A DNA stretch of 64,000 nucleotides from Sandaracinaceae bacterium (lineage in GTDB: Bacteria; Myxococcota_A; Polyangia; Polyangiales; Sandaracinaceae): positions 1 to 64,000 of the forward strand of contig JAVJQK010000031.1 of NCBI GenBank assembly GCA_040218145.1. The letters are read 5' to 3'. Numbering within the stretch: the first letter of the stretch is position 1; each line of letters starts with the position of its first letter. This document shows positions 4,701 to 60,600 of this stretch, piece after piece. The notes under the pieces were generated by a model. The model saw only the letters and a program-made list of their open reading frames with translations, was not told the DNA's origin and searched no databases. The translations under genes and the position numbers were made by a program.

Positions 4701-4701
4701 G

Positions 4702-5013: not shown

Positions 5014-5852
5014 GGCAATCCCCTCGGCGTGATGCGCCGCAGCTCGGCGGCCTCGGTGAAAGGAGCGGTCGTCCCCGGCGCACCCTGTGCGCGCGCGACC
5101 TCTCCGAAACATTCGAACAGCCAGCTCGTCAGGCGACGGCTGGCCGTGGCGCCGGCCGCCGCCTCGACGGTGACCTGCGTGTCGACGCGCCAGGCCTGCC
5201 CGAAGCTCCAGTCCGGCAGGTCGAGTCGGCCCGCGCCGAGCACCTCGACCTCGTAGGTGTCGGTGCCGCGGTAGGCGAGCCCGAGCGCGGTCCCGACGCT
5301 GACCTCACCGACCACGGTGTACCGATCGCCCTGCGTGAGCGGGAAGCGATAGAGCGGCACGGGCGCGTCGTACGGGAGGAGCGTGCGGCCCGCGGGCGGG
5401 TCGGGCTCCGCGCTCGCCACGCCGTGCAGCCAGAGGCCTCGCTCGTCGAGGTGGTAGACGCCGAGCACCGTGCCTCGCAGATCCACCGGCGCGACGTAGT
5501 CGCCGCCCGGGAAGTCGTCGGCGAACCACTGGTCGGTCAGCGCCATCGGTCCGACGCCGACGACCCGGTCGTCCGCGAAGTCCGCGCCCAGGTCCCAGAC
5601 GCGCTGGCCGCTCGCGTCCACGACGCCGTCGAGGTCGACGCGGCGCGAGACGCCCTCCGGGTTGACGAGGTACGCGACCTCGCCGCCGATGAGCACCGGC
5701 ACCTCGCCCGCCTCGAGCACGCCGTCGAGGTTCGGCACGCAGGTGAAGCGCGGCTCCTCGCCGGGCGCGTAGGGCGTGGGCCCTGGGAAGGTGCGGTTCT
5801 CGCCACAGCCCGCCAGGAGACCGAGCAGGAGGAGCATGCGGAGCGCACTCAC
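5010..5852 (-). CDS. lipoprotein, paralogue family member A
   Basis: A predicted outer-membrane or periplasmic lipoprotein of 280 residues. The GTG start at 5852 overlaps the upstream stop as GTGA and gives a short signal peptide, SALRMLLLLGLLAGC, with lipobox LAGC. The mature protein is beta-rich. Its core (a D-G-x-R-x-WD-L block, then W-F-x-D-x-F-P-G-x-DYVA, LGVYHL, and a late FECFG) is shared with the lipoproteins at 8415-9389 and 10976-11950 in the same transcription unit. It lacks the Cys/Asp-Ala-Gly linker those two have. Function is unknown. Confidence 0.7.
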   Translation of the reverse strand: MSALRMLLLLGLLAGCGENRTFPGPTPYAPGEEPRFTCVPNLDGVLEAGEVPVLIGGEVAYLVNPEGVSRRVDLDGVVDASGQRVWDLGADFADDRVVGVGPMALTDQWFADDFPGGDYVAPVDLRGTVLGVYHLDERGLWLHGVASAEPDPPAGRTLLPYDAPVPLYRFPLTQGDRYTVVGEVSVGTALGLAYRGTDTYEVEVLGAGRLDLPDWSFGQAWRVDTQVTVEAAAGATASRRLTSWLFECFGEVARAQGAPGTTAPFTEAAELRRITPRGLP

Positions 5853-7417
5853 AGGGTCACCCACAGGCTCATGCGGAGCAGCTGGGCCGGCTGCGCGCTC
5901 AGCCCCGCTTGCACGTTGTCGAGCCCCGCGAAGGGGAAGAGCACGGCGTACGCCGCGACGATCGACCAGCCGTCGTCGTTCTCGTAGCTGAGGGTCGGGT
6001 CGAGCTCGACGCCGAGCAGGTTGTCGCCGCCCGGGGTGCTCGAGGACTCGAGCGCGAGGCTCAGGACGCCGGCGAGCGAGAGCTTGAGCCGGCCCGAGGG
6101 GTGATCCAGAACCGTCAGGCTAGCGTGCGCACGTACATACGCAGCGTCGGTGATGGTGCCGATGATCTCGCGGAAGAGGATGCGGTCGACCCGGTAGTTC
6201 GGGTGAAAGCGGAAGTTGTCGGTCCGCATGTCGAACGGGGCGACGACCTGCGCTCCGTCGAGGTCACCCGGCTGGCCTGGTCCCCGGGTCGCGCTCGGGA
6301 ACGCCCCGAACCCCGGCGCCGGGTCACCGCTCGCGGCGCCGAAGTCGAGCCCGAGGTCGAGCACGTCGGGCGCGACGTGGAAGCGCGACTCGAACGCGAA
6401 GCCCCACGCGAGCGAGTCGACCGGATCGCGGAGGAAGACGCCCGGGATGAGCGAGGCCTCCTCGAAGCGCCCGCCGATGATCGCGCCCTCGGCGCCGATC
6501 CGACCCCACGGGCCGTGCAGCCGAAGGTAGGCGTCGCCCGCGACGGCCTCGTAGCCGCGGCTGACGATCTGGCTGCGGCTGAGCGTGTAGTCGTCGGGCA
6601 CGGGCAGGTAGCTCGGGGACCAGTCGTTGTCCTGCCAGCGGTAGGACACGAAGGCGCCGTACTCGAGCGTGGTCAGCCCGGCGCGGGTGCGTCGGCGCAG
6701 GCTGATGTCGCTCGTGACGTTCAGGAGCGCGAAGGTGAGCGTGCGCGTGTCGTCGGTCGGGTCGACGTCGAGGAAGCGCACCCCGTCGGCGCGCGGCACG
6801 TTCGGGCCGATCGCGGTCAGGTCGAACGCGAAGGTCCAGATGTGGCCGAGGAGCGGGGTGGCGAAGAAGACGCGATCGGCCGCGTCGTCGGTGTCACAGG
6901 TCGGGCAGTCGCCGCCGTTCGACTGCATGCCGAGGCCCCAGTGGCTGCCGATGCGGCCGGCCGCGATGAGCCCGAGGGGCGTGATGACCTGCGCCCACGC
7001 GCGCTTGAGCACGAACGCCGAGCCGGGCGAGCGCTGCCGGCGCGAGTCCGCGGGCGGGCCGACGGGCAAGCTCCCGAACGAGAGGTTGTCGAGCACGTCG
7101 ATCCGCGCGTGCACGCTCACGGTCGAGTCGGGCACGTTGAACGCGAGGTCGGTGCGCAGCCGCATGTCGGCGTGGGTGAGCAGCTGGCCGAGCGGATCGG
7201 CCTGCGGCACCGGGAAGAGCGGGTCTCCGCTCGGCGTCGGGCCGCGGTCGAGATCCAGGTTGTGGAGCAGCTCGCCGCGCGCGCGGAAGAAGATGCGGTA
7301 GTCGACGAGGTCGGGGTCGCCCGGGTTGGGCACGCGCCGCACCACGGCCTGCGCCTCCGCCAGGCAGGGCGAGAGCGCGGCCACGACGAGGCACAGCGAG
7401 AGGAGCTTCTGCCTCAC
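5849..7417 (-). CDS. outer-membrane beta-barrel-type hypothetical protein
   Basis: A 522-residue exported protein with a typical signal peptide (RQKLLSLCLVVAALSPCLAEAQA). The mature part consists of alternating amphipathic strands rich in aromatic residues with short Asp/Gly turns, ending in a strand with LLRMSLWVTL, as expected for a large outer-membrane beta-barrel. It resembles uncharacterised myxobacterial exported proteins of about this size (possibly the TIGR04551 type, unverified). A CPTC pair occurs in one predicted loop. The GTG start at 7417 overlaps the upstream hydrolase stop (GTGA), implying translational coupling. It may be a porin or envelope channel. Confidence 0.6.
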   Translation of the reverse strand: MRQKLLSLCLVVAALSPCLAEAQAVVRRVPNPGDPDLVDYRIFFRARGELLHNLDLDRGPTPSGDPLFPVPQADPLGQLLTHADMRLRTDLAFNVPDSTVSVHARIDVLDNLSFGSLPVGPPADSRRQRSPGSAFVLKRAWAQVITPLGLIAAGRIGSHWGLGMQSNGGDCPTCDTDDAADRVFFATPLLGHIWTFAFDLTAIGPNVPRADGVRFLDVDPTDDTRTLTFALLNVTSDISLRRRTRAGLTTLEYGAFVSYRWQDNDWSPSYLPVPDDYTLSRSQIVSRGYEAVAGDAYLRLHGPWGRIGAEGAIIGGRFEEASLIPGVFLRDPVDSLAWGFAFESRFHVAPDVLDLGLDFGAASGDPAPGFGAFPSATRGPGQPGDLDGAQVVAPFDMRTDNFRFHPNYRVDRILFREIIGTITDAAYVRAHASLTVLDHPSGRLKLSLAGVLSLALESSSTPGGDNLLGVELDPTLSYENDDGWSIVAAYAVLFPFAGLDNVQAGLSAQPAQLLRMSLWVTL

Positions 7418-44492: not shown

Positions 44493-45911
44493 TCAGCGAC
44501 GCGGCCCGAGGAGCGGAGCCTCCAGCAGCCGCTCTTCGCCTTCGCCCGGCACCTCGTCGACGCGACGGACCCGCACGCGCACCACCTGGCCCTGCTCGAA
44601 GCGCTCGCGCGGCACGTCGACGTAGATCGCGATCTCCCGGTCCGAGAGCGACGGGAGCGCGAGCGCGTCCGCGCTGAGCGTGACCTCGTGGCCGTCGACC
44701 GGGATCGCCTCGATCTCGAAGCGCGCCTCGTCGGGCCCCTTGTTGACCAGGTGGACCTGGAAGAGGTTTCGCACCGTCGCGTCCTCCGTCTGCGCGTTCA
44801 GGACGTGGTAGGGCGCGCCCCGCAGCCGCAGGAGGTTCGCCTCGAACGACACGTGGCTGCGGAAGGCGAAGAACGCCCCGACCGCCCACAGCGCCACGAC
44901 GCCGGCGTAGAGGAAGACGCGCGGGCGCAGCCACCGCCTCGGCCGGTGCTCGAGACCGTTGAGCGAGTCGTACCGGACCAGCCCCGTCGGCCGCTTCAGC
45001 TTGGTCATGATCTCGTCGCACGCGTCGATGCAGGCGGTGCACCCGATGCAGTCGAGCTGCAGGCCGTTGCGGATGTCGATCCCGGTCGGACAGACGACCA
45101 CGCAGCGACCGCAGTCGACGCAGTCTCCCGCGCTGGCGTCCTTGACCTTGCCGCGGGGCTCACCGCGGAGCGCGTCGTAGCCGACGACGAGGCTGTCCCG
45201 ATCCGTCATCACGGACTGGAGGCGCCCGTAGGGGCAGACGATCAGGCAGAGCTGCTCGCGGAACCACGCGAAGTTGCCGTAGAGGATCACGCTCGTCACC
45301 GCCATCCAGGTGAACGCGCCCGGATGCGCGGAGGGCGACGCGCCGATCATGGAGAGCATCGACGGCATCGAGACGAAGAAGCTCAGGAAGATGTGGCTCA
45401 CCCCGAGCGCGGCGACGGCGAAGAGCAGGTGCTTGAGCGCCTTGCGCCAGAGCTTGTCGATCGACATGGGAGCCGCGTTGCGACGGAGGCGCGCCTGCCG
45501 GTTGCCCTCCACGAGCCGCTCGATGCGCCGGAACACCCCCTCGAGGAAGACGGTCTGCGGACACGCCCAGCCGCACCAGACGCGACCGAGCACGGTGGTG
45601 GCGAAGAAGAGCGTCAGCCCCACCCCGCTCAAGAGGAAGAACACCAACCAGAAGTCTTGCGAGTTGTAGGTGCCTCCGAAGAGGTAGAAGCGCCGCGCCG
45701 CCACGTCGAGGTAGAGCGCGGGCTTGCCGCCGACCTGGACCCAGGGGAGCAGGGCCCAGATGGCGATCAGCGCCGCGAACACGACGTAGCGGAGCCGCAC
45801 GAAGCGGCCCTTGACGTCCGCGGGGTGGACGAAATTGCGGCGGCCGTCGCGCGCGATGGAGCTCGCGGGAGGATCCACCACCGGGAGGTGCACGCGGCCG
45901 TCGTGACTCAT
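44493..45911 (-). CDS. ccoG: cbb3 oxidase accessory ferredoxin-like protein CcoG
   Basis: A 472-residue membrane iron-sulfur protein needed for copper handling in cbb3 oxidase assembly (cupric reductase activity is reported for the family). It has several membrane helices, a CGWACPQTVFLEGVFRRIER segment, and two 4Fe-4S motifs (CVDCGRCVVVCPTG and CIGCTACIDACDE), followed by an IG-like periplasmic FixG domain. The ATG at 45911 follows GAGGAGA. It is the last gene of the ccoI-S-NO-Q-P-G unit. Confidence 0.93.
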   Translation of the reverse strand: MSHDGRVHLPVVDPPASSIARDGRRNFVHPADVKGRFVRLRYVVFAALIAIWALLPWVQVGGKPALYLDVAARRFYLFGGTYNSQDFWLVFFLLSGVGLTLFFATTVLGRVWCGWACPQTVFLEGVFRRIERLVEGNRQARLRRNAAPMSIDKLWRKALKHLLFAVAALGVSHIFLSFFVSMPSMLSMIGASPSAHPGAFTWMAVTSVILYGNFAWFREQLCLIVCPYGRLQSVMTDRDSLVVGYDALRGEPRGKVKDASAGDCVDCGRCVVVCPTGIDIRNGLQLDCIGCTACIDACDEIMTKLKRPTGLVRYDSLNGLEHRPRRWLRPRVFLYAGVVALWAVGAFFAFRSHVSFEANLLRLRGAPYHVLNAQTEDATVRNLFQVHLVNKGPDEARFEIEAIPVDGHEVTLSADALALPSLSDREIAIYVDVPRERFEQGQVVRVRVRRVDEVPGEGEERLLEAPLLGPRR

Positions 45912-45921
45912 CGATGTCTCC

Positions 45922-46599
45922 TCAGGCGCCCGGCGGCGCCTCGTCTCCGGTGACCGCGTGCTCGGACTCCCCCGGCGCCTCCTCGGGCGTCTCGGCTTCC
46001 CTCTCCTCGGGCGACGCGTTCGGATCGAAGGGCTCGCCCTCGGCCGGGCGCCCCCCCTGCACGTTGGTGTTCCGCACCGAGAGCAGGTAGGCGGTCACCG
46101 CCTGCACGCGCCGCTGGCCGAGCGCGGCGCCCCACTCCGGCATGCCGCTCGAGCCGGCGAGGCGCGCCCGGTCGGAAGAGATTCCGTCGAGGATCGACCC
46201 GTAGATCTGCAAGGGTCCCCCCCCGTGAAGCCAGGCGTCATCGGTGAGGTTGGGCCCGATCTGCCCCTGCCCCTCGGCGCCGTGGCAGGCGGCGCAGGTC
46301 GTCTGGAACGTCTCGCGCCCCTCCGCCACCGTCGCCGCGTCGCCCGCGAGCACCTGCAGCGTCTCCGCGTCGACCTCCCCGGCCGCCGCGCGCGCCGCCA
46401 TCGCCTCCGCGAAGAGCTCGGGCGTGGACGACGCCATCTCGAACTCCTCGTAGACGAACCAGTATCCGATCGCAAAGGCGATGGCGCCGTAGAAGGTCCA
46501 CAGCCACCACATCGGGAGCGCGTTGTCCGCCTCCTCGATGCCGTCGTAGACGTGGATGATCTCGCCCTGGATCTCGTCGGTCCGCTTGACGTCACCCAT
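45922..46599 (-). CDS. ccoP: cbb3 oxidase subunit CcoP, monohaem form
   Basis: The membrane-bound cytochrome c subunit that passes electrons to CcoN/O. It starts with the CcoP N-terminal domain (DEIQGEIIHVYDGIEEADNALPMWWLWTFYGAIAFAIGYW), then one cytochrome c domain with CAACH and the distal SSGMPEWGAAL. Usual CcoP has two haem-binding CXXCH motifs and about 300 residues; this one has 225 residues, one motif and an acidic tail. The ATG overlaps the ccoQ stop by 8 bases. Confidence 0.9.
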   Translation of the reverse strand: MGDVKRTDEIQGEIIHVYDGIEEADNALPMWWLWTFYGAIAFAIGYWFVYEEFEMASSTPELFAEAMAARAAAGEVDAETLQVLAGDAATVAEGRETFQTTCAACHGAEGQGQIGPNLTDDAWLHGGGPLQIYGSILDGISSDRARLAGSSGMPEWGAALGQRRVQAVTAYLLSVRNTNVQGGRPAEGEPFDPNASPEEREAETPEEAPGESEHAVTGDEAPPGA

Positions 46600-46780
46600 G
46601 GCGCGCCTCGCTCTCTCCTTCGAGGGGCAGGTTGGCCATCGCGTCGACGTGGGCGCGTTCGGCGCGGAGCACCCGCACCACCGCGAGCACGAAGACGGTA
46701 CAGAACAGCAACATCGCGATCAGCGGCCCCGCCAGCAGCGGGCTGTCGCTGAAGAAGTCGCGGGTCATCTCGCTCATCAT
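46592..46780 (-). CDS. ccoQ: cbb3 oxidase CcoQ-like small subunit
   Basis: A 62-residue protein with one membrane helix (LAGPLIAMLLFCTVFVLAVVRVLR) and a short charged tail, the form and position of CcoQ. Two adjacent ATG codons (46780 and 46777) overlap the ccoNO stop as ATGATG; the gene ends 8 bases inside ccoP. CcoQ stabilises the oxidase complex. Confidence 0.8.
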   Translation of the reverse strand: MMSEMTRDFFSDSPLLAGPLIAMLLFCTVFVLAVVRVLRAERAHVDAMANLPLEGESEARHG

Positions 46781-49164
46781 CGGGTCACCTCCTCGCGATC
46801 CTCCGGGATCTCGCTCACCTGCACCGGCGTCGGCCCCTCCTCCTCCGGCGCGCCTTCCCATTCGGACGTGTTCCGCCCGAGGCGCTCGAGGTACGAGATG
46901 AGCGCGACGAGCTGGCTCTCCTCGAGCGGCAGATCACCCCTCGCGCCGTTCGGCTCCACCTCCGGCGCCAGCTCCGACGCGATGAAGGCGGCCTGGGCGC
47001 GCGCGTCGGCCTCCCCGCCGAGCACGGCCGGGTTGTCGTAGGGCACGCCCAGCAACTGCATGACGCCGAGCTTCTGCTGCGTCTCGTCGAACGGGACGCG
47101 CGTGGCTCGCAGGTGTGGGTACGACGGCATGATCGAGCCCGGCGACGTCGAGCGGGGATCGATCATGTGCTCGTAGTGCCACACGGCGCCGCGGTTCTGG
47201 CTGCTCTCTCGCGCCAGGTCGGGGCCAGTGCGCTTGCTTCCCCACTGGAAGGGGTGGTCCCAGATGCTGTCGTCCATGGTGGAGACGCCGCCCGGATAGC
47301 GCGCCGCCTCCCACGTGAAGGGTCGGATCATCTGCGAGTGGCAGTTGTAACAACCCTCGCTGATGTACACGTCTCGACCGTGGAGCTCGAGCGCCGTGTA
47401 GGGCCGCATGGGCGTGTCCCGACGGTCCTGCTCGCCGATGATCACCGACGGCACGATCTCGGCGACGCCGCCGATGAGCACCGCGATGGTGGTGAACACG
47501 GTGAAGAGCAGCGCCTTGCCCTCGAGCACGCTGTGCCAGCCGGGACCGTCATCGCTGCCCACCTGGATGGCGATGGTGCCGAGGATCGTCACGAACACGG
47601 CCGCGGAGATGAGCAGGGTCGAGGCGAGCTCGTTCACGAAGGCGACGGCGCCGACGAGCACCGCGACGACGGTCACCAGCTTGACGGGGTTGCTGAGCAC
47701 GATCGCTCGCCAGTCGACCTCGTCCTCCTCCGGCTCGACCACCACCTCGACGGTCGTCTCGATGGGCTTGCGCCCGCGGATCGTCATCACGAGGTTGTAG
47801 GCGAGCATGAAGAAGCCAGTGAGGTAGACGGTGCCGCCCGTGAGGCGCGCCCAGTACATCGGGCGGATGGCGTCGAGCGTCTCGAGGAAGCTCGGGTAGA
47901 GCAGTCCGCCGTCGGGCGTCTCCGCGCGCCACATCAGCCCCTGCGTCACGCCGCTCACCCACATCGAGACGACATAGAGGAGGATGCCGAGGGTCCCGAG
48001 GTAGAAGTGCGCGTCGGCGAGCTTGCGGCTGTAGAGCTTGGTGCCGAAGAGCCGCGGCACCATCCAGTAGAACATCCCGGCGGCCATGAAGCCGTTCCAC
48101 CCGAGCGCCCCGCCGTGCACGTGGCCGATGATCCAGTCGGTGTAGTGGCCGAGCGAGCTGACCGAGCGGATCGAGAGGAGCGGCCCCTCGAAGGTGGCCA
48201 TGCCGTAGAAGGTCACGCCGGCCGCGAAGAACTTGAGGACCGGGTCCCTGCGCACGCGATCCCACGCGCCGCGGAGCGTCAACAGGCCGTTCAGCATGCC
48301 GCCCCAGCTCGGGGCCCAGAGCATGAGGCTGAAGACCATGCCCAGCGTCTGCGCCCACTCGGGCAGCGCCGTGTTGAGCAGGTGGTGCGGGCCGGCCCAG
48401 ATGTAGATGAAGACCAGGCCCCAGAAGTGGATGATCGAGAGCCGGTAGCTGAAGACCGGGCGGTCCGCGGCCTTCGGCAGGTAGTAGTACATGATGCCGA
48501 GGACGGGGGTGGTCAGGAAGAAGGCGACCGCGTTGTGGCCGTACCACCACTGCACGAGCGCGTCCTGCACGCCGCCGAACACCGAGTAGCTCGTGAACGA
48601 GAGCCCCGCCGGGATGGCGAGGTTGTTCACCACGTAGAGCACGGTGATGGTGACGATGGTCGCGATGTAGAACCAGATCGCGACGTAGAGGTGCTTCTCG
48701 TTGCGCTTCTTCAGGGTCCAGAAGAAGTTGATCGCGAAGATCACCCAGACGAGCGCGACCGCGATGTCGATCGGCCACTCGAGCTCCGCGTACTCCTTGG
48801 ACTGCGTGATGCCGAGCGGGAGGGTGATGGCGGCCGACAGGATGATCGCCTGCCAGCCCCAGAAGTGGATCTTGGCCAGCAGATCGCTCGCCACGCGCGT
48901 CTTCAGCAGGCGCTGCGTGGAGTGGTACATGCCGGCGAAGATCATGTTGCCGACGAACGCGAAGATGACGGCGTTGGTGTGGAGCGGGCGGAGGCGGCCG
49001 AAGGTGAAGTACGGCACGCCCCCGTCGGAGAGGTTGGCCGGCCAGAACGCGAGCTGGAGCGCCACCAGGGCGCCCACGCTCATGCCGACCAGCCCCCACA
49101 CGATCGACGCGCCGGTGAACCAGCGGGCGACCCAATCGTTGTAGGTGACGGAGCGAGTTTCCAC
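46777..49164 (-). CDS. ccoNO: cbb3 cytochrome c oxidase fused catalytic subunit CcoN-CcoO
   Basis: A 795-residue fusion of the catalytic haem-copper subunit CcoN and the monohaem cytochrome c subunit CcoO, normally two genes. The CcoN part has a dozen membrane helices with haem and copper ligands: His62 in LHTNAVIFAF, VQWWYGHNAVAFFL, the HH pair in AGPHHLL and IGHVHGGALGWNG. The CcoO part has its membrane anchor (about 530-580) and CYNCH at 605-609 followed by SQMIRPF. The start is GTG at 49164, two bases after the ccoS stop. It reduces oxygen with high affinity while pumping protons. Confidence 0.95.
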   Translation of the reverse strand: METRSVTYNDWVARWFTGASIVWGLVGMSVGALVALQLAFWPANLSDGGVPYFTFGRLRPLHTNAVIFAFVGNMIFAGMYHSTQRLLKTRVASDLLAKIHFWGWQAIILSAAITLPLGITQSKEYAELEWPIDIAVALVWVIFAINFFWTLKKRNEKHLYVAIWFYIATIVTITVLYVVNNLAIPAGLSFTSYSVFGGVQDALVQWWYGHNAVAFFLTTPVLGIMYYYLPKAADRPVFSYRLSIIHFWGLVFIYIWAGPHHLLNTALPEWAQTLGMVFSLMLWAPSWGGMLNGLLTLRGAWDRVRRDPVLKFFAAGVTFYGMATFEGPLLSIRSVSSLGHYTDWIIGHVHGGALGWNGFMAAGMFYWMVPRLFGTKLYSRKLADAHFYLGTLGILLYVVSMWVSGVTQGLMWRAETPDGGLLYPSFLETLDAIRPMYWARLTGGTVYLTGFFMLAYNLVMTIRGRKPIETTVEVVVEPEEDEVDWRAIVLSNPVKLVTVVAVLVGAVAFVNELASTLLISAAVFVTILGTIAIQVGSDDGPGWHSVLEGKALLFTVFTTIAVLIGGVAEIVPSVIIGEQDRRDTPMRPYTALELHGRDVYISEGCYNCHSQMIRPFTWEAARYPGGVSTMDDSIWDHPFQWGSKRTGPDLARESSQNRGAVWHYEHMIDPRSTSPGSIMPSYPHLRATRVPFDETQQKLGVMQLLGVPYDNPAVLGGEADARAQAAFIASELAPEVEPNGARGDLPLEESQLVALISYLERLGRNTSEWEGAPEEEGPTPVQVSEIPEDREEVTR

Positions 49165-49166
49165 GT

Positions 49167-49367
49167 CTATCGATCCTCGGGGAGGGAGGGGGGTTGGGAG
49201 GACGAGGCGGAGTCCTCGTCGGAGGGTTGGGGGTCGTCTCGAAGGGGGAGCAGCGCGAGCCGGTCGGCGTGCTCGTGGGAGCCGCGGCCGATCGACCACA
49301 CGAAGGCGAGGGCGCCCGCGCCGGCGAGCACGAGGCTCACGAAGAGCGTCAAGATCAGGACCTCCAT
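49167..49367 (-). CDS. ccoS: cbb3 oxidase maturation protein CcoS
   Basis: A 66-residue protein: one membrane helix (VLILTLFVSLVLAGAGALAFVWSI) followed by a short polar, Ser/Asp-rich tail, the typical CcoS form, required for inserting cofactors into CcoN. Its ATG at 49367 lies inside the end of ccoI (13-base overlap) and its stop is two bases before ccoNO, so it is translationally embedded in the operon. Confidence 0.88.
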   Translation of the reverse strand: MEVLILTLFVSLVLAGAGALAFVWSIGRGSHEHADRLALLPLRDDPQPSDEDSASSSQPPSLPEDR

Positions 49368-51718
49368 CGAGACCTCCCGGCGGGGGCGCGCATCGCGAGC
49401 GCCGCGCCCGCGAGGGTCACGACGGAGCTGATGGGCATGAGCACGGCGGCCACCCAGGGCTCGACGAGCCCCGCGTAGGCGAGCCCGACGGCGCCGAGGT
49501 TGTAGACGACGGCGAACGCGAGGCAGCCGCGCACGACCCGCGCGAGGCGCCGCGCCTCCAGCAGCAGCTCCCGCACCGGCGCGAGGCCCGCGGTGACGAA
49601 GTAGAAGTCGCTCCGCGCCGGCATGAAGGGCCGATCGATGGCGGGGGTGCCGCTCGCGAGCGCGACCTCGGCCGCGGGGCCGTCGTTGATTCCATCGCCG
49701 ACGAAGAGGGTCTCCTCGGGCGCGTGCGCGCGGAGCCACTCGGCCTTGTCGTCGGGGCGCTGGCCGCCGATCGCGCGCTCCTCGGGGAGGCCGAGCCGCG
49801 CCGCCATGGCGCGGGTCCGAGCCACGGAGTCGCCGCTGAGGATCCAGACCTCGAGCCCGTCGGCGAGGAGCGCGGCGACCTCGCGCTGCGCGTCCGGCCG
49901 GAGGGCCTCCTCCGTCTCCAACCAGACGATCGGGCGGCCGTCCCGCGCGAAGACCAGGTCGGCCTCGGGTCGGTGCTCTGGCGCCGCCCACTCCGGCGCG
50001 CCCAGACGGAAGCGGTGTCCGCCGCGCTGCGTCTGCATGCCGCACGAAGGCGCCTCGAGCGCGACGAGCGACGGATCGAAGGGCGCATCGAGCGCGTCGA
50101 GCACGGCGAGGCTCTTGGGGTGCGTGCTGCGCGCGGCGAGGCCGTGGAGCACCGCCCTCTCCTCGTCGTCGAGCGCGTCGAGCGCCGCGGCGTCCACGAG
50201 GCGCGGCTTGCCGGTCGTCAGCGTCCCGGTCTTGTCGAAGACCGCGCGCCGGACCCCGGGCAGGCGCCGCAGCAAGCCGGCGTCGCGCACGAAGAGCCCG
50301 CGGCGGCGGAGGTGACTCTGGGCGAGCTCCCACGCGAGCGGCGCCGCGATGCCGAACGCACACGGACAGGTCACCACCAGGACGGCGGTGGTCACGCGCA
50401 CGGCCTCGTCGAACGTCCCGTGCATCATCCAGAGCGCGAAGGCGCCGGCCGCGGCGGCGAGCACGCCGGCCACGTAGAGGCCCGCGATCCGACCGGTGAG
50501 GGGGCTCGACGCCTCGCGCTCCAGGGGCGCGCGGAGCAAGCCCGTCAGCGGAGAGCCCGCGAGATCGGTGACGCACGTCGCCTGGACACCGCCTCCCGAG
50601 GCGAGGAAGGCCCCGGCGGGCGCGATGGCGCCAGCCTCGAAGCGACGCGGCTCGCTCTCCCCGTCGATCCAGTCGAGCCGGAGCGAGGCGGCCGAGGCGA
50701 GCACCGCGTCGACGGGGACGAGGTCGCCCGCGGCGAGGAAGAGCGTGTCGCCCGGCGCCAGCTCCGTGCAGCGGACCAGCTTGGGCCCGTCCCGCTCCAG
50801 TCGGCGCGACCAGAGCCCGAGGGTGCCGTCGCTCTTCAACAGACGCGCTCGGTTCTGCGCGACCACGCGCTCCTGCAGCCAGCGACCGACCAGCATGAGC
50901 GCCACGAAGACCGCGACGGTGTCGAAGTAGCCGGGTTCGAGAGGGCCGTCGCCTCCACCGAAGAAGCTCCAGGTCGACCCCACCGTGGCCAGCCCGATCC
51001 CGACCGCGATCGGCAGATCGAGGTGCACCAGCCCGCGGCGGAGGCTCTGCCAGGCGGACTTGACGAAGACGCCGCCCCCGACCACCACGGTGGCGACGCC
51101 GAGGGCGAAGGCCAGCTCCCGCGCCACGTCGTGGAGGCGCCCCTCGGTCAGGCCGAAGTAGAGCGCGAGGCTGACCATCATGGCGTTCGCGGCGAGCGCC
51201 ACGCTGAGACCCATGCGGAGCGTGAGCGCGTCGCTCCGCGCGGAGCCCGCGAGCGCAGCCCCCTCCAACGCGGGACCGATGGCGTAGCCGACCGACCGGA
51301 CCGCGTCCGCCCACCGGCGGAGATCGAAGCTCGGCTCGACGGCCAGGCGGATCCGTCCCCGCGAGGGGTTCACCACGCAAGATTTGCCTCCGGGCTGACG
51401 GGCGAAGACGGCCTCGAGCAACCAGACGCAGGCGGCGCAGTGCACCCCCTGCACGTCGACCTCGAGCCGCGTGAGCCCGGCGGCCGCCTCGAGACGCGCC
51501 TCGAGCGGAGCCAGCCACGCCGACTCCGCCTGCTCGGGGGGCGCCGGCAAGCCGGGCGCCGCGCCGCGCAGGTCGTAGTATCGGCCGAGCCCTTCGGCCT
51601 CCAGGATCGCGTGCACGCGCGCGCACCCAGCGCAGCAGAACGCGCCCTCGATCCCGCCGAGGGGGTTCGCGCAATGCCGGCAGGTGCCGGCGTAGGAGTC
51701 GAGGGTGGCGGTGCGCAT
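49355..51718 (-). CDS. ccoI: copper-translocating P-type ATPase CcoI
   Basis: A 787-residue P1B-type ATPase that exports copper for the cbb3 binuclear centre. The N-terminus has the CcoI/FixI-type metal segment (CRHCANPL, FCCAGC), then a heavy-metal domain with GVHCAACVWLLE (Cys94, Cys97), eight membrane helices including the CPC motif in VVTCPCAFG, phosphorylation site DKTGTLTTGK and the hinge GDGINDGPA. It is the first gene of the operon, and a sigma54-type promoter sequence ends about 45 bp before its ATG. Confidence 0.94.
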   Translation of the reverse strand: MRTATLDSYAGTCRHCANPLGGIEGAFCCAGCARVHAILEAEGLGRYYDLRGAAPGLPAPPEQAESAWLAPLEARLEAAAGLTRLEVDVQGVHCAACVWLLEAVFARQPGGKSCVVNPSRGRIRLAVEPSFDLRRWADAVRSVGYAIGPALEGAALAGSARSDALTLRMGLSVALAANAMMVSLALYFGLTEGRLHDVARELAFALGVATVVVGGGVFVKSAWQSLRRGLVHLDLPIAVGIGLATVGSTWSFFGGGDGPLEPGYFDTVAVFVALMLVGRWLQERVVAQNRARLLKSDGTLGLWSRRLERDGPKLVRCTELAPGDTLFLAAGDLVPVDAVLASAASLRLDWIDGESEPRRFEAGAIAPAGAFLASGGGVQATCVTDLAGSPLTGLLRAPLEREASSPLTGRIAGLYVAGVLAAAAGAFALWMMHGTFDEAVRVTTAVLVVTCPCAFGIAAPLAWELAQSHLRRRGLFVRDAGLLRRLPGVRRAVFDKTGTLTTGKPRLVDAAALDALDDEERAVLHGLAARSTHPKSLAVLDALDAPFDPSLVALEAPSCGMQTQRGGHRFRLGAPEWAAPEHRPEADLVFARDGRPIVWLETEEALRPDAQREVAALLADGLEVWILSGDSVARTRAMAARLGLPEERAIGGQRPDDKAEWLRAHAPEETLFVGDGINDGPAAEVALASGTPAIDRPFMPARSDFYFVTAGLAPVRELLLEARRLARVVRGCLAFAVVYNLGAVGLAYAGLVEPWVAAVLMPISSVVTLAGAALAMRAPAGRSRWRS

Positions 51719-51763
51719 GTCCGGCGCGAGGGACCCCTGAATGGGTCTCGCGGCGCGGCGTCT

Positions 51764-51779
51764 TGCAGAGGGCGTACCA
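51764..51779 (-). promoter_or_regulatory. sigma54 (-24/-12) promoter of the cco operon
   Basis: Minus-strand sequence TGGTACG, four bases, CTGCA. It has the invariant GG and GC at exact spacing and differs from TGGCACG-N4-TTGCA at only two consensus positions. The expected transcript start is near 51752, giving a leader of about 35 nt before the ccoI ATG at 51718. Confidence 0.6.
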
Positions 51780-51879
51780 CCGCCGAGAGCTGGAACCGGG
51801 GAGGTCTGGACGGTGACATCGGCGCATCGACTGCGAGCTGACGCAGATCCTGCGTCTGCGCTTTCGCTTGAACATCACC

Positions 51880-51896
51880 GTGTGGGCGTGACACAC
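51880..51896. promoter_or_regulatory. candidate activator palindrome upstream of ccoI
   Basis: Inverted repeat GTGTG-N7-CACAC about 100 bp upstream of the sigma54-type promoter, a usual distance for an enhancer of an NtrC-type activator. The form also resembles sites of the CRP/FNR family, so the binding protein is open. Confidence 0.3.
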
Positions 51897-51903
51897 ATGT
51901 TTC

Positions 51904-52215
51904 GTGCGGTGGTTCCGACGTCTGCTTCGAAGTGAGGGATCTGCGCCCCCTTCCCCGGTCCTCCTGCGGGTGCAAGCCCCGGGCGGGAGCCCGGCGTCGG
52001 CCGTCGACGTGCGCGCACGCTGGCTCCCCTCCGGACGCACGACCGAGCGCAGCCACCGCACCGCGGACGGGCTCTGCGTGGTCTCCTGGATGGGCGACGA
52101 GGAGCGCGTCGAGCTGACCTTGCGCTCGGAGGTCGGCGGCGCGGCGCTCGAGCTTCACCGCGACCGGCCCGACGGTGGCCGCGTGCGCGACGTGGCGCTC
52201 GACGGCCCGCTCTGA
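51904..52215 (+). CDS. small hypothetical protein
   Basis: A possible 103-residue protein from GTG 51904. Codon positions look coding in the second half (VDVRARWLPSGRTTERS..., VELTLRSEVGGAALELHRD), which would be a small beta-rich domain. The start lacks a good ribosome-binding site and overlaps the ccoI regulatory region, so the N-terminus could lie further downstream. No recognisable family. Confidence 0.42.
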   Translation: MRWFRRLLRSEGSAPPSPVLLRVQAPGGSPASAVDVRARWLPSGRTTERSHRTADGLCVVSWMGDEERVELTLRSEVGGAALELHRDRPDGGRVRDVALDGPL

Positions 52216-52270
52216 GCTCGCCGGGCCGCGTGGCGAGGAGGCGTCGCGCGCGTACCTCGCGGTCGAGCCC

Positions 52271-53572
52271 ATGGACCTGATCGTCGGTCACGACAACACG
52301 GACTTCGACGCGCTCGCGGCCGCGGTGGCGGCGCAGCGGCTCCATCCCGGCGCCATCATCGGGTTCGGTCGGGTGCTCACCGGTCCGGTGCGCGACTTCT
52401 GGTCGCTGCACAAGGACCGCTTCCCGGCCGAGCGCGTGGACGCGCTGCCGCTGGACGAGGTCGTGCGCCTCGTGGTGGTGGACGTGCGAGACCGCCGGCG
52501 CCTGGCCCACGTGGAGCGGGTGCTCGAGCGGCGCGACGAGGGCGCGCGGGTGGAGGTCTTCGTCTACGACCACCACCCGGCGTGCGAGCACGACGTGGCA
52601 GGGGACGCGGAGATCGTCGAGCCGGTCGGCGCGGTCACCACGCTCCTCGTCGAGCGCCTGCGCGCCCAGGAGATCTCGATCGACCCGACGGAGGCGACCC
52701 TCTTCGCGCTCGGCATCTACACCGACACCAACGCGCTGACGCTGGGGAGCACGACCGCGCGCGACGCCCGGGCCGCGGCGTGGCTGCTCGAGCGCGGGGC
52801 GCAGCTCTCCGTCGTCAACCGCTACCTCCGGCCGCGCTTCAGCGACGCCCAGCGCGTCGCGCTCTCCGAGGTGCTCGCGCACACCGAGCTGCACGAGATC
52901 GGCGGTCTGCACGTCGGCGTCGCCGCGCTCGCCCTCGAGACGCGCGTGGAGGGGCTCGCGGACGTCACGAGCGAGGCCCGCCGACTCCTCGGGCACGCGG
53001 CGCTCTTCGCGGTCACGACGACCCCGCGCGGCAAGGTCGAGATCGTCGGGAGGGCTTCCCAGGGCGGCGTGGACGTGGGCGCGACGCTCCGGACGCTCGG
53101 CGGGGGCGGTCACCCCGGCGCGGGCAGCGCCAGGCTCAAGACCGGCGAGATCGGCGACGTGGTGGCGCGACTGCTCGCGGCGCTCCGCGAGCGACCGCCG
53201 CGCCCCGAGCGGGTGTCCGACGTGATGAGCAGCCCGGTCGAGACGGTGGGACCCGGGCTGACCCTGGCCGAGCTCGCCGAGATGCTCGAGCGACGTGGCG
53301 TCTCGGGCATGCCGGTCGTACGTGACGGCGCCCTGCTCGGGGTCGTGAGCCGACGCGATGTGTCGCGCGCGCGCGAGGGCGGCCGACTGGAGCTACCCGT
53401 GACGAGCCACATGAGCGGCAACCTCCGCACCGTGGGCCCCGACGCGCCGCTCGAAGAGGCGCTGGCCGCGATGACCGAAGCCGACGTCGGCCGCCTCCCC
53501 GTCCTTCGAGACGAGCGCCTCGTCGGCATCGTCAGTCGCACCGACGTGCTCCGCGCGCTCTACCCGGAGTGA
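52271..53572 (+). CDS. DHH phosphoesterase with paired CBS domains
   Basis: A 433-residue protein combining a DHH/DHHA1 phosphoesterase (GHDNTDFDALAAAVAA near residue 6, VVVDVRD at about 68-74, YDHH 99-102, GGGGHPGAGSA about 278) with two CBS domains (about 315-433: SDVMSSPVETV..., TSHMSGNLRTVG...). The same DHH-CBS unit forms the N-terminal half of some long tRNA nucleotidyltransferases, but the nucleotidyltransferase half is missing. CBS pairs bind adenine nucleotides, so activity may follow energy state. ATG 52271 fits the DHH N-terminus. Confidence 0.82.
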   Translation: MDLIVGHDNTDFDALAAAVAAQRLHPGAIIGFGRVLTGPVRDFWSLHKDRFPAERVDALPLDEVVRLVVVDVRDRRRLAHVERVLERRDEGARVEVFVYDHHPACEHDVAGDAEIVEPVGAVTTLLVERLRAQEISIDPTEATLFALGIYTDTNALTLGSTTARDARAAAWLLERGAQLSVVNRYLRPRFSDAQRVALSEVLAHTELHEIGGLHVGVAALALETRVEGLADVTSEARRLLGHAALFAVTTTPRGKVEIVGRASQGGVDVGATLRTLGGGGHPGAGSARLKTGEIGDVVARLLAALRERPPRPERVSDVMSSPVETVGPGLTLAELAEMLERRGVSGMPVVRDGALLGVVSRRDVSRAREGGRLELPVTSHMSGNLRTVGPDAPLEEALAAMTEADVGRLPVLRDERLVGIVSRTDVLRALYPE

Positions 53573-54476: not shown

Positions 54477-54729
54477 CGAGTCTCTCCTCCGATCGCGCAG
54501 GCGCTGCGCCTCCGCGCAAGGTTTGCGTCAGTCTGCGCGCGACCCGGTCTTTAATCACCGTGCCTCGCGTCGAAACTCACCATGTTCAGTCACACACCCA
54601 CGAACAGTGCACGACTCGGACCAGGCATCGAGCAGCACTCGCGCGCTCCATGCACCGGATGCGCCTCTCTGCGGCCCCGTCCTGTACCAAGCTTCTAGGC
54701 GCGAGCCTTGCACGGGCAACCGATCGCGC

Positions 54730-55935
54730 ATGCCACCTCCCCCCAGCTCCGCGCCGCTGCGCCGCCTCGACGTGGCGCGCGCGTTCCCGCAAGCTCACTC
54801 CATGGGCGACCTCGCCCGACGCGACGCGCTGTTCGAGTACGTGGGCTTCGGAGACCGCGACGTGGTCGCGCTGACCTCTGCGGGCCCCGTGCTGCGCGAG
54901 GTCTTCGCCGATCTGGTGGAGGACTTCTGCGCGTCGCTCGCTAGCGACCCCGACGCCAGCGCCGTGCTCGGACCGGACGAGCGGCAGCGCTTTCGCCAGC
55001 GCCTCGAGCTGAGCGAGTGGCTCCACTCGCTCGTCGCCGGGCGCTACGACGAGACCTGGCTCGCGCGCGTCGAGAACGTCGGGCGCATGCACGTCCGCGT
55101 GCAGCTGCCGCAGCGATACATGCTCCTCGCCATGAGCCGCGTCCGCGCGGCGCTGCACTCCGCGCTGTGGAACGCGAGCCTGCCGCGGGAGGACGCGCGC
55201 GACGCGCACGTGGCGCTCGACAAGCTCTGCGACGTGGAGCTGGCGCTGATGCTCGACGCCTACCGCGAGCGCGACGTCTCGCGCGAGCGGCTGGCCGCGC
55301 TCGGTCAGCTCGCCGCGTCGATCGGCCACGAGCTGCGCACCCCGCTGGCGACGATCCGCACCTCCGCGTATCTGGCCCGGGAGGGAGAGGGGCTCGAGCA
55401 CCTCGACAAGATCGATCGGCAGGCCACGCTCGCCGAGAAGATCATCACGGACATCCTCGAGATGGTCCGCGACGCGCCGCCGGCGAGGGAGCCCATCGAT
55501 CTGCGCGCGCTCCTCGACGAGGCCTGCGTCGCCGCCCAGGGCGAGTGCACCGCGCTCGAGGTCGATCTCGCGGCCGCGGAGGTGCACGCCGACCGCGTGG
55601 CGCTGCGCCAGCTGCTCGTCAACTTGATCGACAACGCACAGCGCTCCGCGAGAGAGCACCACCCCGACGCGCGCGTGATGGTGAGCGCGCGCGCGGACGA
55701 CACGGACCTGGTGATCGAGGTTCGCGACGGCGGGCGCGGGTTCCCGCGACAGATCCTGGAGAAGCGGTTCGCGCCCCTCTCCTCCACGCGCCCCGACGGC
55801 ATCGGTCTGGGGCTCGCCCTGTGCGCGCGCATCGTCGAGCGCCACGGCGGAAGCTTGCACGCCGAGAACCCGCCCGAGGGCGGCGCGCTGGTCGTCGCGC
55901 GGATCGCCCAGGCGATCCAGGAAGGTCCCCGATGA
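54730..55935 (+). CDS. protoglobin-type globin-coupled sensor histidine kinase
   Basis: A 401-residue soluble sensor kinase. Residues about 30-180 form a protoglobin/globin-coupled-sensor domain with the expected proximal haem ligand His121 in VGRMHVRVQLPQRYML. The kinase core follows: HisKA with phospho-acceptor His200 (SIGHELRTPLATIR), N box NLIDNAQRS, and G boxes RDGGRGFP and GIGLGLAL. It should sense oxygen (or NO/CO) through haem. The start is uncertain (ATG 54730 or 54802). Its stop overlaps the next gene as ATGA, making a coupled signalling pair. Confidence 0.85.
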   Translation: MPPPPSSAPLRRLDVARAFPQAHSMGDLARRDALFEYVGFGDRDVVALTSAGPVLREVFADLVEDFCASLASDPDASAVLGPDERQRFRQRLELSEWLHSLVAGRYDETWLARVENVGRMHVRVQLPQRYMLLAMSRVRAALHSALWNASLPREDARDAHVALDKLCDVELALMLDAYRERDVSRERLAALGQLAASIGHELRTPLATIRTSAYLAREGEGLEHLDKIDRQATLAEKIITDILEMVRDAPPAREPIDLRALLDEACVAAQGECTALEVDLAAAEVHADRVALRQLLVNLIDNAQRSAREHHPDARVMVSARADDTDLVIEVRDGGRGFPRQILEKRFAPLSSTRPDGIGLGLALCARIVERHGGSLHAENPPEGGALVVARIAQAIQEGPR

Positions 55936-57428
55936 GCCGCATCCTCCTGGTCGAGGACGACCTCGACCTCGCCGAGAACGTGCATCAACTCCTCGGCCGA
56001 ATCGGGGAGGTCGAGGCGTGCACCGACGCGGACGCGGCGGCGGAGGCCGTGCGCTCCCGACGGTTCGACCTCGCGCTGATGGACGTGCGCCTCGCCTCGG
56101 ACCTGGAGCCGCGCACCGCGCTCGATCTCCTGCCGCTCGTGCGCGAGCACTCGCCCGACGCGGAGATCGTCCTGATGAGCGGCTACGCGACCCTCGACTC
56201 CGCGCTCGAGGCGGTGCGACAGGGCGTGTTCGCGTACGTGCCCAAGCCCTTCGATCCGCGCGGCCTGCTCGCCCTCGCGGAGCGCGCGCTCTCCCAGGTC
56301 GCGCTGCGTCGCGAGCGCAAGCAGCTGTCGAAGGAGCTGGGGCGCTCGGAGGCGCTCCACCGCGCGGTCTTCGACGCCGTCGACGAGCTCATCGTCGGCC
56401 TCGACAAGTCTCACCGGATCCAGCTCTGGAACCGCGCGGCCGCCGCGGCGACGGGATGGAGCCTCGAGGAGGCGCTCGATCAGAACGCGTGCGATCTGCT
56501 GCTCGACGCCAGCCAGCGCGGGCTGTTCGACCACGCGGTCGAGAGCGCGAGCCGCGGCGAAGGCACCGGGGCCTTCCGGGTGCTCATCAACACGCGGGCG
56601 GGCGAGCAGCGCGTCGTGCAGTGGACCGCCAGGCCCCTCAGCCCCGACGGAGCGCCCCCGAGGATGGTGGTCGTCGCCGGGACGGACGTGACCGAGCGCC
56701 TCGCGCTCGAGCGGCGCGCGGCCGACGCCGAGGCGATGGCCGCGATGGGGCGGCTCACGAGCGCGCTGGCGCACGAGATCCGCAACCCCATCAACGCCGC
56801 CAAGCTGCAGCTCGAGGTGCTCCGCCGGTCTGCGATGAAGCTCGAGAACGGGGCGGACGCCATCCAGCGACGCGTCGAGGTGATCGGCGGCGAGCTCTCG
56901 CGGCTCTCACATCTGCTCGACGACTTCATGGGCCTCGCCCGCCCCAAGCACCTCACCCTGCACGCGGTGGAGCTCGAGGACGTGGTGAACGGGGTCGCGC
57001 ACGTCCAGCGCCCCACAATCGAGTCCGCGGGGCTGTCCCTCGAGGTCGAGATCGGCGACGGGCTCTGCCCGAGCTACGCCGACGAGGGCAGACTCAAGCA
57101 AGCCATGATGCACCTCGTGACCAACGCCATCGACGCGCTGCAGGCGCGCGGCTCCGGCACCATCCGGCTCGCCGCGCTCCGCGACGGCCGGGTGCAAGAG
57201 CTCCGCGTCGAGGACGACGGCCCAGGGCTCGATCAGCCCGAGGACCAGGTGGTGGCGCCGTTCGTCACCACCAAGAAGACCGGCACCGGGCTCGGCCTCC
57301 CGTTCGCGAAGAAGATCACGGAGATGCACGGAGGGCAGCTGCTGCTGAGGCCGCGCGACGGCGGCGGGACCACGGTGCGCATCCGGCTGCCCGTCATCGA
57401 CGCGAACGGCGTCCCGGAGCCGGGGTGA
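55932..57428 (+). CDS. response-regulator / PAS / histidine-kinase hybrid
   Basis: A 498-residue phosphorelay protein with an N-terminal receiver (DD at 9-10, phosphorylation Asp51, Lys105 in PKPF), a PAS domain (about 140-250: LHRAVFDAVDELIVGLDKSHRIQLWN), and a HisKA/HATPase core with His281 (LAHEIRNPINAAKL) and DDGPGL / TGTGLGLPFAKKI. It can accept phosphate from the globin kinase encoded just upstream and pass a signal on, plausibly to the NtrC-type regulator at 58155. The ATG at 55932 overlaps the upstream stop (ATGA). Confidence 0.88.
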   Translation: MSRILLVEDDLDLAENVHQLLGRIGEVEACTDADAAAEAVRSRRFDLALMDVRLASDLEPRTALDLLPLVREHSPDAEIVLMSGYATLDSALEAVRQGVFAYVPKPFDPRGLLALAERALSQVALRRERKQLSKELGRSEALHRAVFDAVDELIVGLDKSHRIQLWNRAAAAATGWSLEEALDQNACDLLLDASQRGLFDHAVESASRGEGTGAFRVLINTRAGEQRVVQWTARPLSPDGAPPRMVVVAGTDVTERLALERRAADAEAMAAMGRLTSALAHEIRNPINAAKLQLEVLRRSAMKLENGADAIQRRVEVIGGELSRLSHLLDDFMGLARPKHLTLHAVELEDVVNGVAHVQRPTIESAGLSLEVEIGDGLCPSYADEGRLKQAMMHLVTNAIDALQARGSGTIRLAALRDGRVQELRVEDDGPGLDQPEDQVVAPFVTTKKTGTGLGLPFAKKITEMHGGQLLLRPRDGGGTTVRIRLPVIDANGVPEPG

Positions 57429-58126
57429 TCGCCGTCGCCGTGGTCGCGGGCGCCTCGGCGGGGCTCGCCTCGATCCCGCACTGCGCAGGCATGTGCGGGC
57501 CGCTGGCCGCGTTCGCCGGTCGCACGCGGCGCGACGCGGGGCTCTACCAGGCTGGACGCCTCGCCGCCTACGTGGCGCTCGGGACGGCCGCGGGGCTGGC
57601 CGGCGAAGGCGTGGAGCGGATCCTCCCCGCCGCGTGGGCCGGCGCCCTGGTCAGCTTCTCGCTCGCCGCGGCCTTGCTCGTCAGCGCGTGGCGCCTCTGG
57701 CGTCGAGACGGCGAGACGCTGGTCCAGCTCGGCACGAAGCCGCCCCGTGAGTCGTGGTCGCGGCGGCTGGCGGCGCGCGTCCCGTTCTCCACGGGACACC
57801 CGGGGCTGCTCGGGGCGCTCACCGGGCTGCTTCCTTGCGGGACGCTCTACGCGGCGCTGCTGCTCGCGGCGGGTACGGGAGACACCCGCGCCGGCGCGGT
57901 GACCATGTTCGCGTTCGGCGCCACGAGCGCCCTCGGCCTCGCGGTGGTCGGCGCGGTCGCGGCCAAGGTGCGTGGGCTGATGCGGCGCGGCGCCGAGCCG
58001 ACGTTCTTCGCGCGCGTCCTCGCGACCTGCCTGCTCGTGGGCGGCATCCTCCTCGCGATGCGGCCGATCTCCACCCTCGCCAGGCCTGACGCCGCGCCCT
58101 GTCACACCGAGGCGAACGCTCGCTGA
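57425..58126 (+). CDS. TauE/SafE (DsbD-like) membrane protein linked to cbb3 assembly
   Basis: A 233-residue inner-membrane protein of about six helices with the PHCAGMCGPLAAF motif (Cys20, Cys24) near the N-terminus and TGLLPCGTLY in the middle, as in the DsbD-like branch annotated as sulfite exporter TauE/SafE. In many bacteria this gene lies in cco clusters and is thought to take part in copper delivery or redox for cbb3 oxidase. The GTG start at 57425 overlaps the hybrid kinase stop (GTGA), tying it to the oxygen-sensing operon. Confidence 0.82.
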   Translation: MIAVAVVAGASAGLASIPHCAGMCGPLAAFAGRTRRDAGLYQAGRLAAYVALGTAAGLAGEGVERILPAAWAGALVSFSLAAALLVSAWRLWRRDGETLVQLGTKPPRESWSRRLAARVPFSTGHPGLLGALTGLLPCGTLYAALLLAAGTGDTRAGAVTMFAFGATSALGLAVVGAVAAKVRGLMRRGAEPTFFARVLATCLLVGGILLAMRPISTLARPDAAPCHTEANAR

Positions 58127-58154: not shown

Positions 58155-59573
<1,419 letters not shown>

Positions 59574-59586
59574 GACGGGCCTCCTT

Positions 59587-60414
59587 TCAGGCCACCGCCA
59601 CGTGCTCGCCCAAGGCCTGACGCAGCTTCTGCCGCGCCCGCAGCTCGATCTGCCGGACGCGCTCCCGCGAGAGCCCCATCCGGGTCCCGATGTTCGCCAG
59701 GGTCTCCTTGTCGTCGTGCAGGAGGCGCTTCTCGACGATCAGCCGCTCGCGCGCGTCGAGGTGCTCGAGGGCGGCGGCGACCGACTCCTCGTTGAGCCGG
59801 TGGAGCTCGTTCTTCGAGGCCTCCTCCTCGGGCGAGGCGCCGAACGAGGGGAGATCCACCACGTGCCCGTCGTCGCTCGGTCCGAGCGAGACGTCGCGGC
59901 CGCTGAGCGCCGCCTCCACCATCGCGACCTCCTCGGCCGTCACGTCGAGGGCCTTGGCCACCTGCTCGCGCGTCGGCGGCGCGCCGAGCTGCGCGGAGAG
60001 CTTGCGCTGCGTCTGGCGCAGCGAGCTGAGCAGCCGACGCCCGTTGCGCGTGGAAGGAGCGCCGACGATGCGCCGGTTGGCGATCGTGAAGCGGCGGATG
60101 AGCGCTCGGACCCACCACGCGGCGTAGGTGGAGAAGCGCGTCCCCTTGCTGCGGTCGAAGCGGCGCGCGGCCTCCACCAGGCCGAGGTTGCCCTCCGCCA
60201 CCAGATCCTCCAGGCCGATGCCGTGCCCCGTGTACTTCTGAGCCACGGAGAGAACCAGCCTCAGATGCGAGACCAGCAGCGCGTTCAGCGCGACCGGGTC
60301 GTCCGAGTCCTGGATGCGGCGCAGATAGTCTCGCTCGGTCTCTGCGTCGAGCATCGGCGCTTCTATCGCGGCGCGGCGAATCCGCCCGGCCATCCCATCG
60401 TATCGAGCTGCCAT
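59587..60414 (-). CDS. RpoH-like (sigma32-type) RNA polymerase sigma factor
   Basis: A 275-residue group 3 sigma factor: region 2 with GLEDLVAEGNLGLVEAARRFDRSKGTRFSTYAAWWVRALIRRF, an RpoH-box-like QTQRKL stretch, and region 4 ending GLSRERVRQIELRARQKLRQ. It would direct heat-shock or stress promoters. Myxobacteria carry several RpoH-like factors with developmental or stress roles. The ATG at 60414 follows GGAGG. It probably shares a transcript with the downstream NtrC-type regulator (13 bp apart). Confidence 0.9.
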   Translation of the reverse strand: MAARYDGMAGRIRRAAIEAPMLDAETERDYLRRIQDSDDPVALNALLVSHLRLVLSVAQKYTGHGIGLEDLVAEGNLGLVEAARRFDRSKGTRFSTYAAWWVRALIRRFTIANRRIVGAPSTRNGRRLLSSLRQTQRKLSAQLGAPPTREQVAKALDVTAEEVAMVEAALSGRDVSLGPSDDGHVVDLPSFGASPEEEASKNELHRLNEESVAAALEHLDARERLIVEKRLLHDDKETLANIGTRMGLSRERVRQIELRARQKLRQALGEHVAVA

Positions 60415-60600
60415 CTGTTGACCTCCGCCCGTCCTCCAGAGCAGTGGTCATGCCAGGCGTCCCGGCACTGAGATTCCTGGCATACGGCCTCGCGCTCGCG
60501 CATTCCGTGCGTCGAGGCGCGCGGGGACGCAGATTGTGCGCGTCGATTGTGCTGGCCTTCCGCTCGTGCGAGCGTAGGTGTCCCCAACGAGGAGCTATCG

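Follow-up and report, generated by a model that had tools for sequence, protein, structure and literature searches.

What switches on the cbb3 oxidase genes of this Sandaracinaceae bacterium? In the window (the whole stretch of DNA analysed, 64,000 nt), these genes follow a P-type ATPase gene, ccoI, and the original prediction placed a sigma54 -24/-12 promoter directly before it. The question is whether that promoter stands up in its genomic context and, if so, which activator would serve it.

The sigma54-type element before ccoI

The operon and its putative promoter region comprise the following features:

44493–45911, minus: ccoG (TIGR02745, 420 bits, over the cut-off)
45922–46599, minus: ccoP-like cytochrome c subunit (TIGR00782, 110 bits, below the cut-off)
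46777–49236, minus: ccoNO fusion, cbb3 oxidase subunits I/II (NF011053, 1129 bits, over the cut-off; the real start lies within the frame)
49167–49358, minus: ccoS (FixS, PF03597; Pfam match)
49355–51718, minus: ccoI-type P1B ATPase, 787 aa, opening the operon (assigned by its place in the cco cluster and by hits to heavy-metal P-type ATPase models that stay below the cut-offs)
51764–51779, minus: sigma54 -24/-12 element TGGTACG-CCCT-CTGCA of the ccoI operon (sequence read, matrix score and conserved placement in relatives)
52175–53572: DHH/CBS protein on the far side of the ccoI promoter

Reading of the minus strand from 51779 to 51764 confirmed TGGTACG-N4-CTGCA on the ccoI coding strand, with GG at 51778–51777 and GC at 51766–51765, 10 nt apart and thus at the exact spacing that had been claimed. 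The element departs from TGGCACG-N4-TTGCW at two positions (T for C and C for T), both outside GG and GC. With C51765 set as -12, the predicted +1 falls at 51753, giving a leader of 35 nt to the ATG at 51718, the length originally estimated.

As a string, the site is unremarkable. Scored with a hand-written sigma54 matrix, which was not trained on data here and assumes 70% G+C, it reaches 14.9 bits and ranks second among all window positions; the chance of an equal or higher score under this matrix is P = 4.0e-6 per position (exact calculation). Matches at least this good are expected by chance about 0.5 times per 64-kb window (both strands), about 88 times in the 22.1 M positions of both strands of a random genome this size, and 0.0007 times in the ~170 positions of the leader region on one strand. 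TGGYACGN4YTGCA occurs four times in the 11.06-Mb genome and its backward control eight times, that is, without excess. Given some 88 expected chance matches and no genome-wide excess, the string alone is weak evidence. It is the place of the site and the company it keeps that make the case, and the context is decisive. The genome does encode the sigma54 machinery, with one RpoN and 76 matches to PF00158, the weakest of them partial, amounting to dozens of sigma54 activators.

NmpR-like enhancers and the nmp locus

Upstream of the element are two sites resembling those of NmpR, an NtrC-like regulator of Myxococcus xanthus, and the window also contains genes for a similar regulator and its putative kinases:

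51822–51836, minus: proximal NmpR-like enhancer of ccoI, TCGCA-GTCGA-TGCGC (centred near -76; distance to the sigma54 17-mer, 49 nt)
51841–51855, minus: distal NmpR-like enhancer of ccoI, ACGCA-GGATC-TGCGT (centred near -95; distance to the sigma54 17-mer, 68 nt)
54495–54528, plus: pair of NmpR-like sites in tandem, the perfect GCGCAGGCGCTGCGC and, after a gap of 4 nt, GCGCAAGGTTTGCGT; flanked by a USP gene on the minus strand and by nmpU on the plus strand
54696–54712, plus: sigma54-like site TAGGCGCGAGCCTTGCA before nmpU (13.7 bits)
54730–55935, plus: NmpU-like protoglobin histidine kinase (PF11563, 86 bits, HisKA, HATPase; matches the AfGcHK globin, 5ohe)
55932–57428, plus: NmpS-like hybrid kinase (receiver, PAS, HisKA, HATPase; Pfam)
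58155–59573, minus: NmpR-like NtrC-family activator (receiver, sigma54 AAA+, Fis-type HTH; Pfam)
59587–60414, minus: RpoH-like sigma70-family factor, the first gene before nmpR (best NCBIfam model RpoH, at 217 bits under its cut-off of 323)
60440–60456, minus: sigma54-like site CTGGCATGACCACTGCT (at 17.1 bits the highest score of the window; the ATG of the sigma gene follows after about 26 bp)
60498–60541, minus: tandem NmpR-like sites with a 14-nt gap, upstream of the sigma/nmpR operon
Contig C114, 729–761: fourth tandem NmpR-like site (141 bp from its first site to the ATG of a CBS-like ORF)

The NmpR consensus is described as paired GCGCA-N5-TGCGC with sigma54 sites downstream, and the rule given for regulated promoters is two sites, each with an unaltered GCA-N5-TGC core and at least one deviating from GCGCA-N5-TGCGC by a single base at most (PMC11841059). 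The ccoI pair conforms to this rule, with two deviations in the distal site and one in the proximal site. The distal site lies inside a palindrome (51840–51856), and GACGCAN5TGCGTC is unique in the genome. Tandem sites are separated by 4 nt at ccoI, 4 nt at nmpU and 14 nt at the sigma/nmpR operon; the NmpR-bound gaps reported for M. xanthus are 14–15 nt, with 5 and 24 nt also bound (PMC11841059). Two features therefore count against NmpR control of ccoI—the deviations of its enhancers, and a 4-nt gap that is unlike M. xanthus and shorter than that of any NmpR-bound promoter in this published account. An inverted repeat, GTGTG-N7-CACAC, was also observed at 51880–51896, upstream of the ccoI enhancers.

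A strict tandem pattern (RCGCAN5TGCGY twice, gap 2–26) occurs at two places in the 11.06 Mb, 54495–54528 and 60498–60541 (backward control, one), and a looser pattern at four (backward control, two). The four are the ccoI, nmpU and sigma/nmpR leaders, all in this window, and a site on contig C114 that precedes a CBS-domain ORF, the CBS name being our own reading of the ORF. This genome-wide rarity is a direct observation, as are the promoter and enhancer sequences themselves. Each tandem pair has a sigma54-like site downstream (14.9, 13.7, 17.1 and 11.7 bits at ccoI, nmpU, sigma/nmpR and the CBS ORF, respectively), which on C114 is TGGGCTCGTCCCTTGCA, between the pair and the ORF. The nmpU leader from TAGGCGCGAGCCTTGCA would be only ~6 nt if the ATG at 54730 were used, so the real start may be further down. 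The NmpR regulon of M. xanthus likewise includes nmpU, the operon of NmpR itself (in which a CBS protein comes first), a USP and the cbb3 operon (PMC11841059), and the four tandem-site targets found here agree in kind with it as published.

The gene content can likewise be read directly, and corresponds to NmpU, NmpS and NmpR of M. xanthus as described (PMC11841059, PMC6211767): a protoglobin kinase with the haem histidine, a hybrid kinase near nmpU and a regulator of NmpR architecture. In M. xanthus, the gene for the two-receiver phosphosink NmpT lies between nmpU and nmpS (PMC11841059). Here, unlike in that published arrangement, nmpU and nmpS overlap at 55932–55935 with no nmpT in between, so that the phosphosink of the M. 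xanthus model may be a step that is missing here or that depends on a gene at another locus. A DsbD_2-type membrane protein (Pfam), possibly for cytochrome biogenesis, is encoded directly 3′ of nmpS (57429–58126, plus), and two USP-type genes lie on the minus strand between the DHH/CBS protein and nmpU. The NmpR-like protein contains the Walker A motif GESGTGKE and the sigma54-contact loop GSFTGA, the usual form of which is GAFTGA. Its gene is 6–8 kb from the ccoI enhancers; the cco and nmp genes together lie within ~16 kb, unlike in M. xanthus.

The putative sensor shares the protoglobin–histidine kinase architecture of AfGcHK, the NmpU homologue of Anaeromyxobacter sp. Fw109-5, and its globin domain matches that of AfGcHK (5ohe) at 65.6 bits. 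In the alignment, the haem ligand and proximal histidine of AfGcHK, His99, corresponds to H121, whereas the distal Tyr45 is replaced by Cys67 (codon 54928–54930, frame from 54730). Among relatives, with the copy of the window excluded, the distal position is Tyr in 21 of 22 and His in the remaining one. Tyr45 of AfGcHK is described as important for O2 recognition (PMC8697598), and PMC11841059 describes the targets of the Anaeromyxobacter system as unknown.

Conservation across the order

From a set of 56 genomes, 36 ccoI loci were taken (the window, L003–L031 and L102–L107), 35 of which, all in the same order, passed the 200-bit and length limits and supplied upstream regions of 250 bp each; genomes with weak or partial ccoI matches are outside this sample. 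The locus dropped at this step, L102, has a 16.0-bit site and no NmpR-like site. L076, L108 (match starts at residue 136) and L084 (32% identity) were also left out, and none of them has a site of at least 8 bits or an NmpR-like site. Other phyla, returned by a further scan, served as the outgroup, excluding L146 (match begins at base 2); this control is weak, as the matrix assumes 70% G+C and many outgroup ccoI genes may be operon-internal.

Sigma54 matches of at least 12 bits were present on the coding strand in 17 of the 35 regions but on the opposite strand in only 3; shuffled sequences gave 0.53 on average (maximum 3), and outgroup phyla 2 of 77. The conservation upstream of homologous ccoI genes that the original prediction had named as its test thus supports the sigma54 reading. 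The strict enhancer RCGCAN5TGCGY was likewise found in 17 of 35 (shuffles, 0.39, maximum 2; outgroup phyla, 0 of 77). The 17 regions span 15 genera and 6 families. Enhancer and promoter in a common geometry, defined as a promoter match of 8 bits or more preceded by the enhancer at 40–100 nt, occurred in 16 of 35 regions (shuffles, 0.03, maximum 1; outgroup phyla, 0 of 77) and in 8 of 35 on the other strand, a control inflated in part by the palindromy of the enhancer.

Enhancer and sigma54 positions were each found independently of the other. Measured from the centre of the enhancer to where the best sigma54 17-mer begins, the distances fall at 30, 32, 47–49, 59–60, 68–69, 77–79 and 89–91 nt, with 49 and 68 in the window. 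With one site counted per locus, the 10-bp phasing over 19 loci has a median R of 0.82 against a 99.9% null of 0.57, so that conserved, helically phased spacing in relatives is also directly established. The pattern is not universal: a sigma54 match of at least 12 bits is absent from 18 of the 35 regions, and some (L006, L007, L019, L023 and L030) lack an NmpR-like site and score no higher than 9 bits for sigma54. L015 and L025 have their enhancer-like sites downstream of the best sigma54 match. Upstream regions of nmpU in relatives show no sigma54 enrichment (5 of 23, compared with 4 of 23 reversed, at ≥10 bits), and two Myxococcales MAGs (L109 and L110) have no NmpR-like site and sigma54 scores of only 7.9 and 7.6 bits. 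In the phylum search, 13 of 150 genomes matched at E ≤ 1e-100; as all 13 belong to the same order, other classes were beyond its reach.

The RpoH-like gene was compared across 11 loci in which such a gene lies near nmp or cco genes (in L107, near ccoI and not nmpR). Its upstream region contains a sigma54 match of at least 10 bits in 10 of the 11 (reversed control, 1; shuffle mean, 0.5) and of at least 12 bits in 7 (reversed control, 1; shuffle mean, 0.13). In 10 of 11, an NmpR-like site is present no more than 400 bp upstream. On the basis of these upstream sigma54 and NmpR-like sites, the RpoH-like gene probably does head the nmpR operon in part of the order; in other relatives, nmpR occurs without a nearby RpoH-like gene.

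A candidate oxygen switch and its alternatives

We consider it very probable that the ccoI-ccoS-ccoNO-ccoP(-ccoG) operon has a sigma54 promoter activated by the NmpR-like regulator (58155–59573) acting on the two enhancers at about -95 and -76. The promoter could also be sigma54-dependent and served by another NtrC-type activator, such as the paralogue on contig C42 (ORF 4245–5906), which has a degenerate receiver, is 58% identical to the NmpR-like protein over residues 90–467 and has a very similar HTH (SRRTIQYRLKEW against SRRKIQYRLREW); the 55% class of NmpR-like gene, moreover, adjoins ccoI in L103, L105 and L106. We regard this as unlikely, because three of the four tandem enhancer sites lie before ccoI, nmpU and the sigma/nmpR operon, as would suit an nmp locus that regulates itself, whereas no nmpU or nmpS is evident next to the C42 gene, judging from a reading of the listed ORFs.

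Explanations that dispense with sigma54 fare considerably worse. The number of equal matches expected in a random genome, together with the lack of genome-wide excess, would allow the -24/-12 match to be a coincidence and ccoI to be driven by an unrecognised promoter of the sigma70-family or FNR/Crp type, but the placement is conserved with enhancers at phased distances in many genera, and we found no sigma70-type promoter at 51700–52200 (such scans cover high-G+C promoters poorly) and no FNR-type box near ccoI; a coincidence is therefore very improbable. We give even less credence to the idea that the palindromes form a terminator or serve only the divergent gene, with the sigma54 string incidental. 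A scan does flag the stem at 51842–51860 on the plus strand as terminator-like, but its T tail is weak and the motif recurs in tandem only at the nmp loci and the CBS gene. A plus-strand sigma54 promoter in the ccoI leader, directed towards the divergent gene, was rejected at a best score of 5.4 bits.

For activation by the NmpR-like regulator, we infer binding, the phosphorelay and its sign, transcription and oxygen as the signal by analogy with M. xanthus. With oxygen present, the globin kinase NmpU would phosphorylate the receiver of NmpS and keep NmpS off; when oxygen falls, NmpS would phosphorylate NmpR, which would then assemble on the enhancers and contact RNA polymerase–sigma54. Targets switched on in this way would be the high-affinity cbb3 oxidase, the nmp genes and the RpoH-like sigma factor. 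As in FixLJ/FixK and FNR control of cbb3 oxidases, low oxygen would switch the oxidase on through a haem- or iron-based sensor. Those routes end in FixK/FNR boxes and a sigma70-type polymerase, unlike the AAA+ activator and sigma54 here, where an FNR-type box is lacking near ccoI.

The original remark that a sigma54 promoter would be unusual for a terminal oxidase operon holds only in part, as NmpR/sigma54 control of the P-type ATPase/cbb3 operon mxan_5543–5538 of M. xanthus was published in 2025 on the evidence of EMSA, lacZ and hypoxia experiments (PMC11841059); a ccoI/cbb3 operon governed by NmpR through sigma54 already has a published precedent. By the published descriptions, both operons begin with the P-type ATPase gene, followed by the oxidase genes, and both have a sigma54 site with paired GCGCA-N5-TGCGC-type enhancers, and both systems combine an NtrC-like regulator with a globin kinase and a hybrid kinase. 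In the literature found, the name NmpRSTU is, by title, confined to M. xanthus. The newer details are the lack of NmpT between nmpU and nmpS, the cysteine in place of the distal haem tyrosine of NmpU and the RpoH-like gene heading the nmpR operon, which we list as a difference from M. xanthus as described; in PMC11841059, "sigma factor" appears only in a general sentence of the text, figures aside. It is conceivable, if doubtful, that NmpR and sigma54 turn on an RpoH-like factor cotranscribed with nmpR, so that hypoxia would reach a second, sigma70-family regulon in an order-wide two-step cascade, while the Cys-for-Tyr sensor of this organism would have altered gas or redox selectivity.

The NmpR/sigma54 reading of the ccoI promoter would carry a myxobacterial oxygen switch for cbb3 oxidase, known from experiment, over to another large genome and, through the conserved, helically phased sites, to a range of genera within a single order. 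The four tandem enhancers narrow an 11-Mb genome down to a few sites that can be tested exactly, and the RpoH-like sigma factor is a candidate second tier under the same control.
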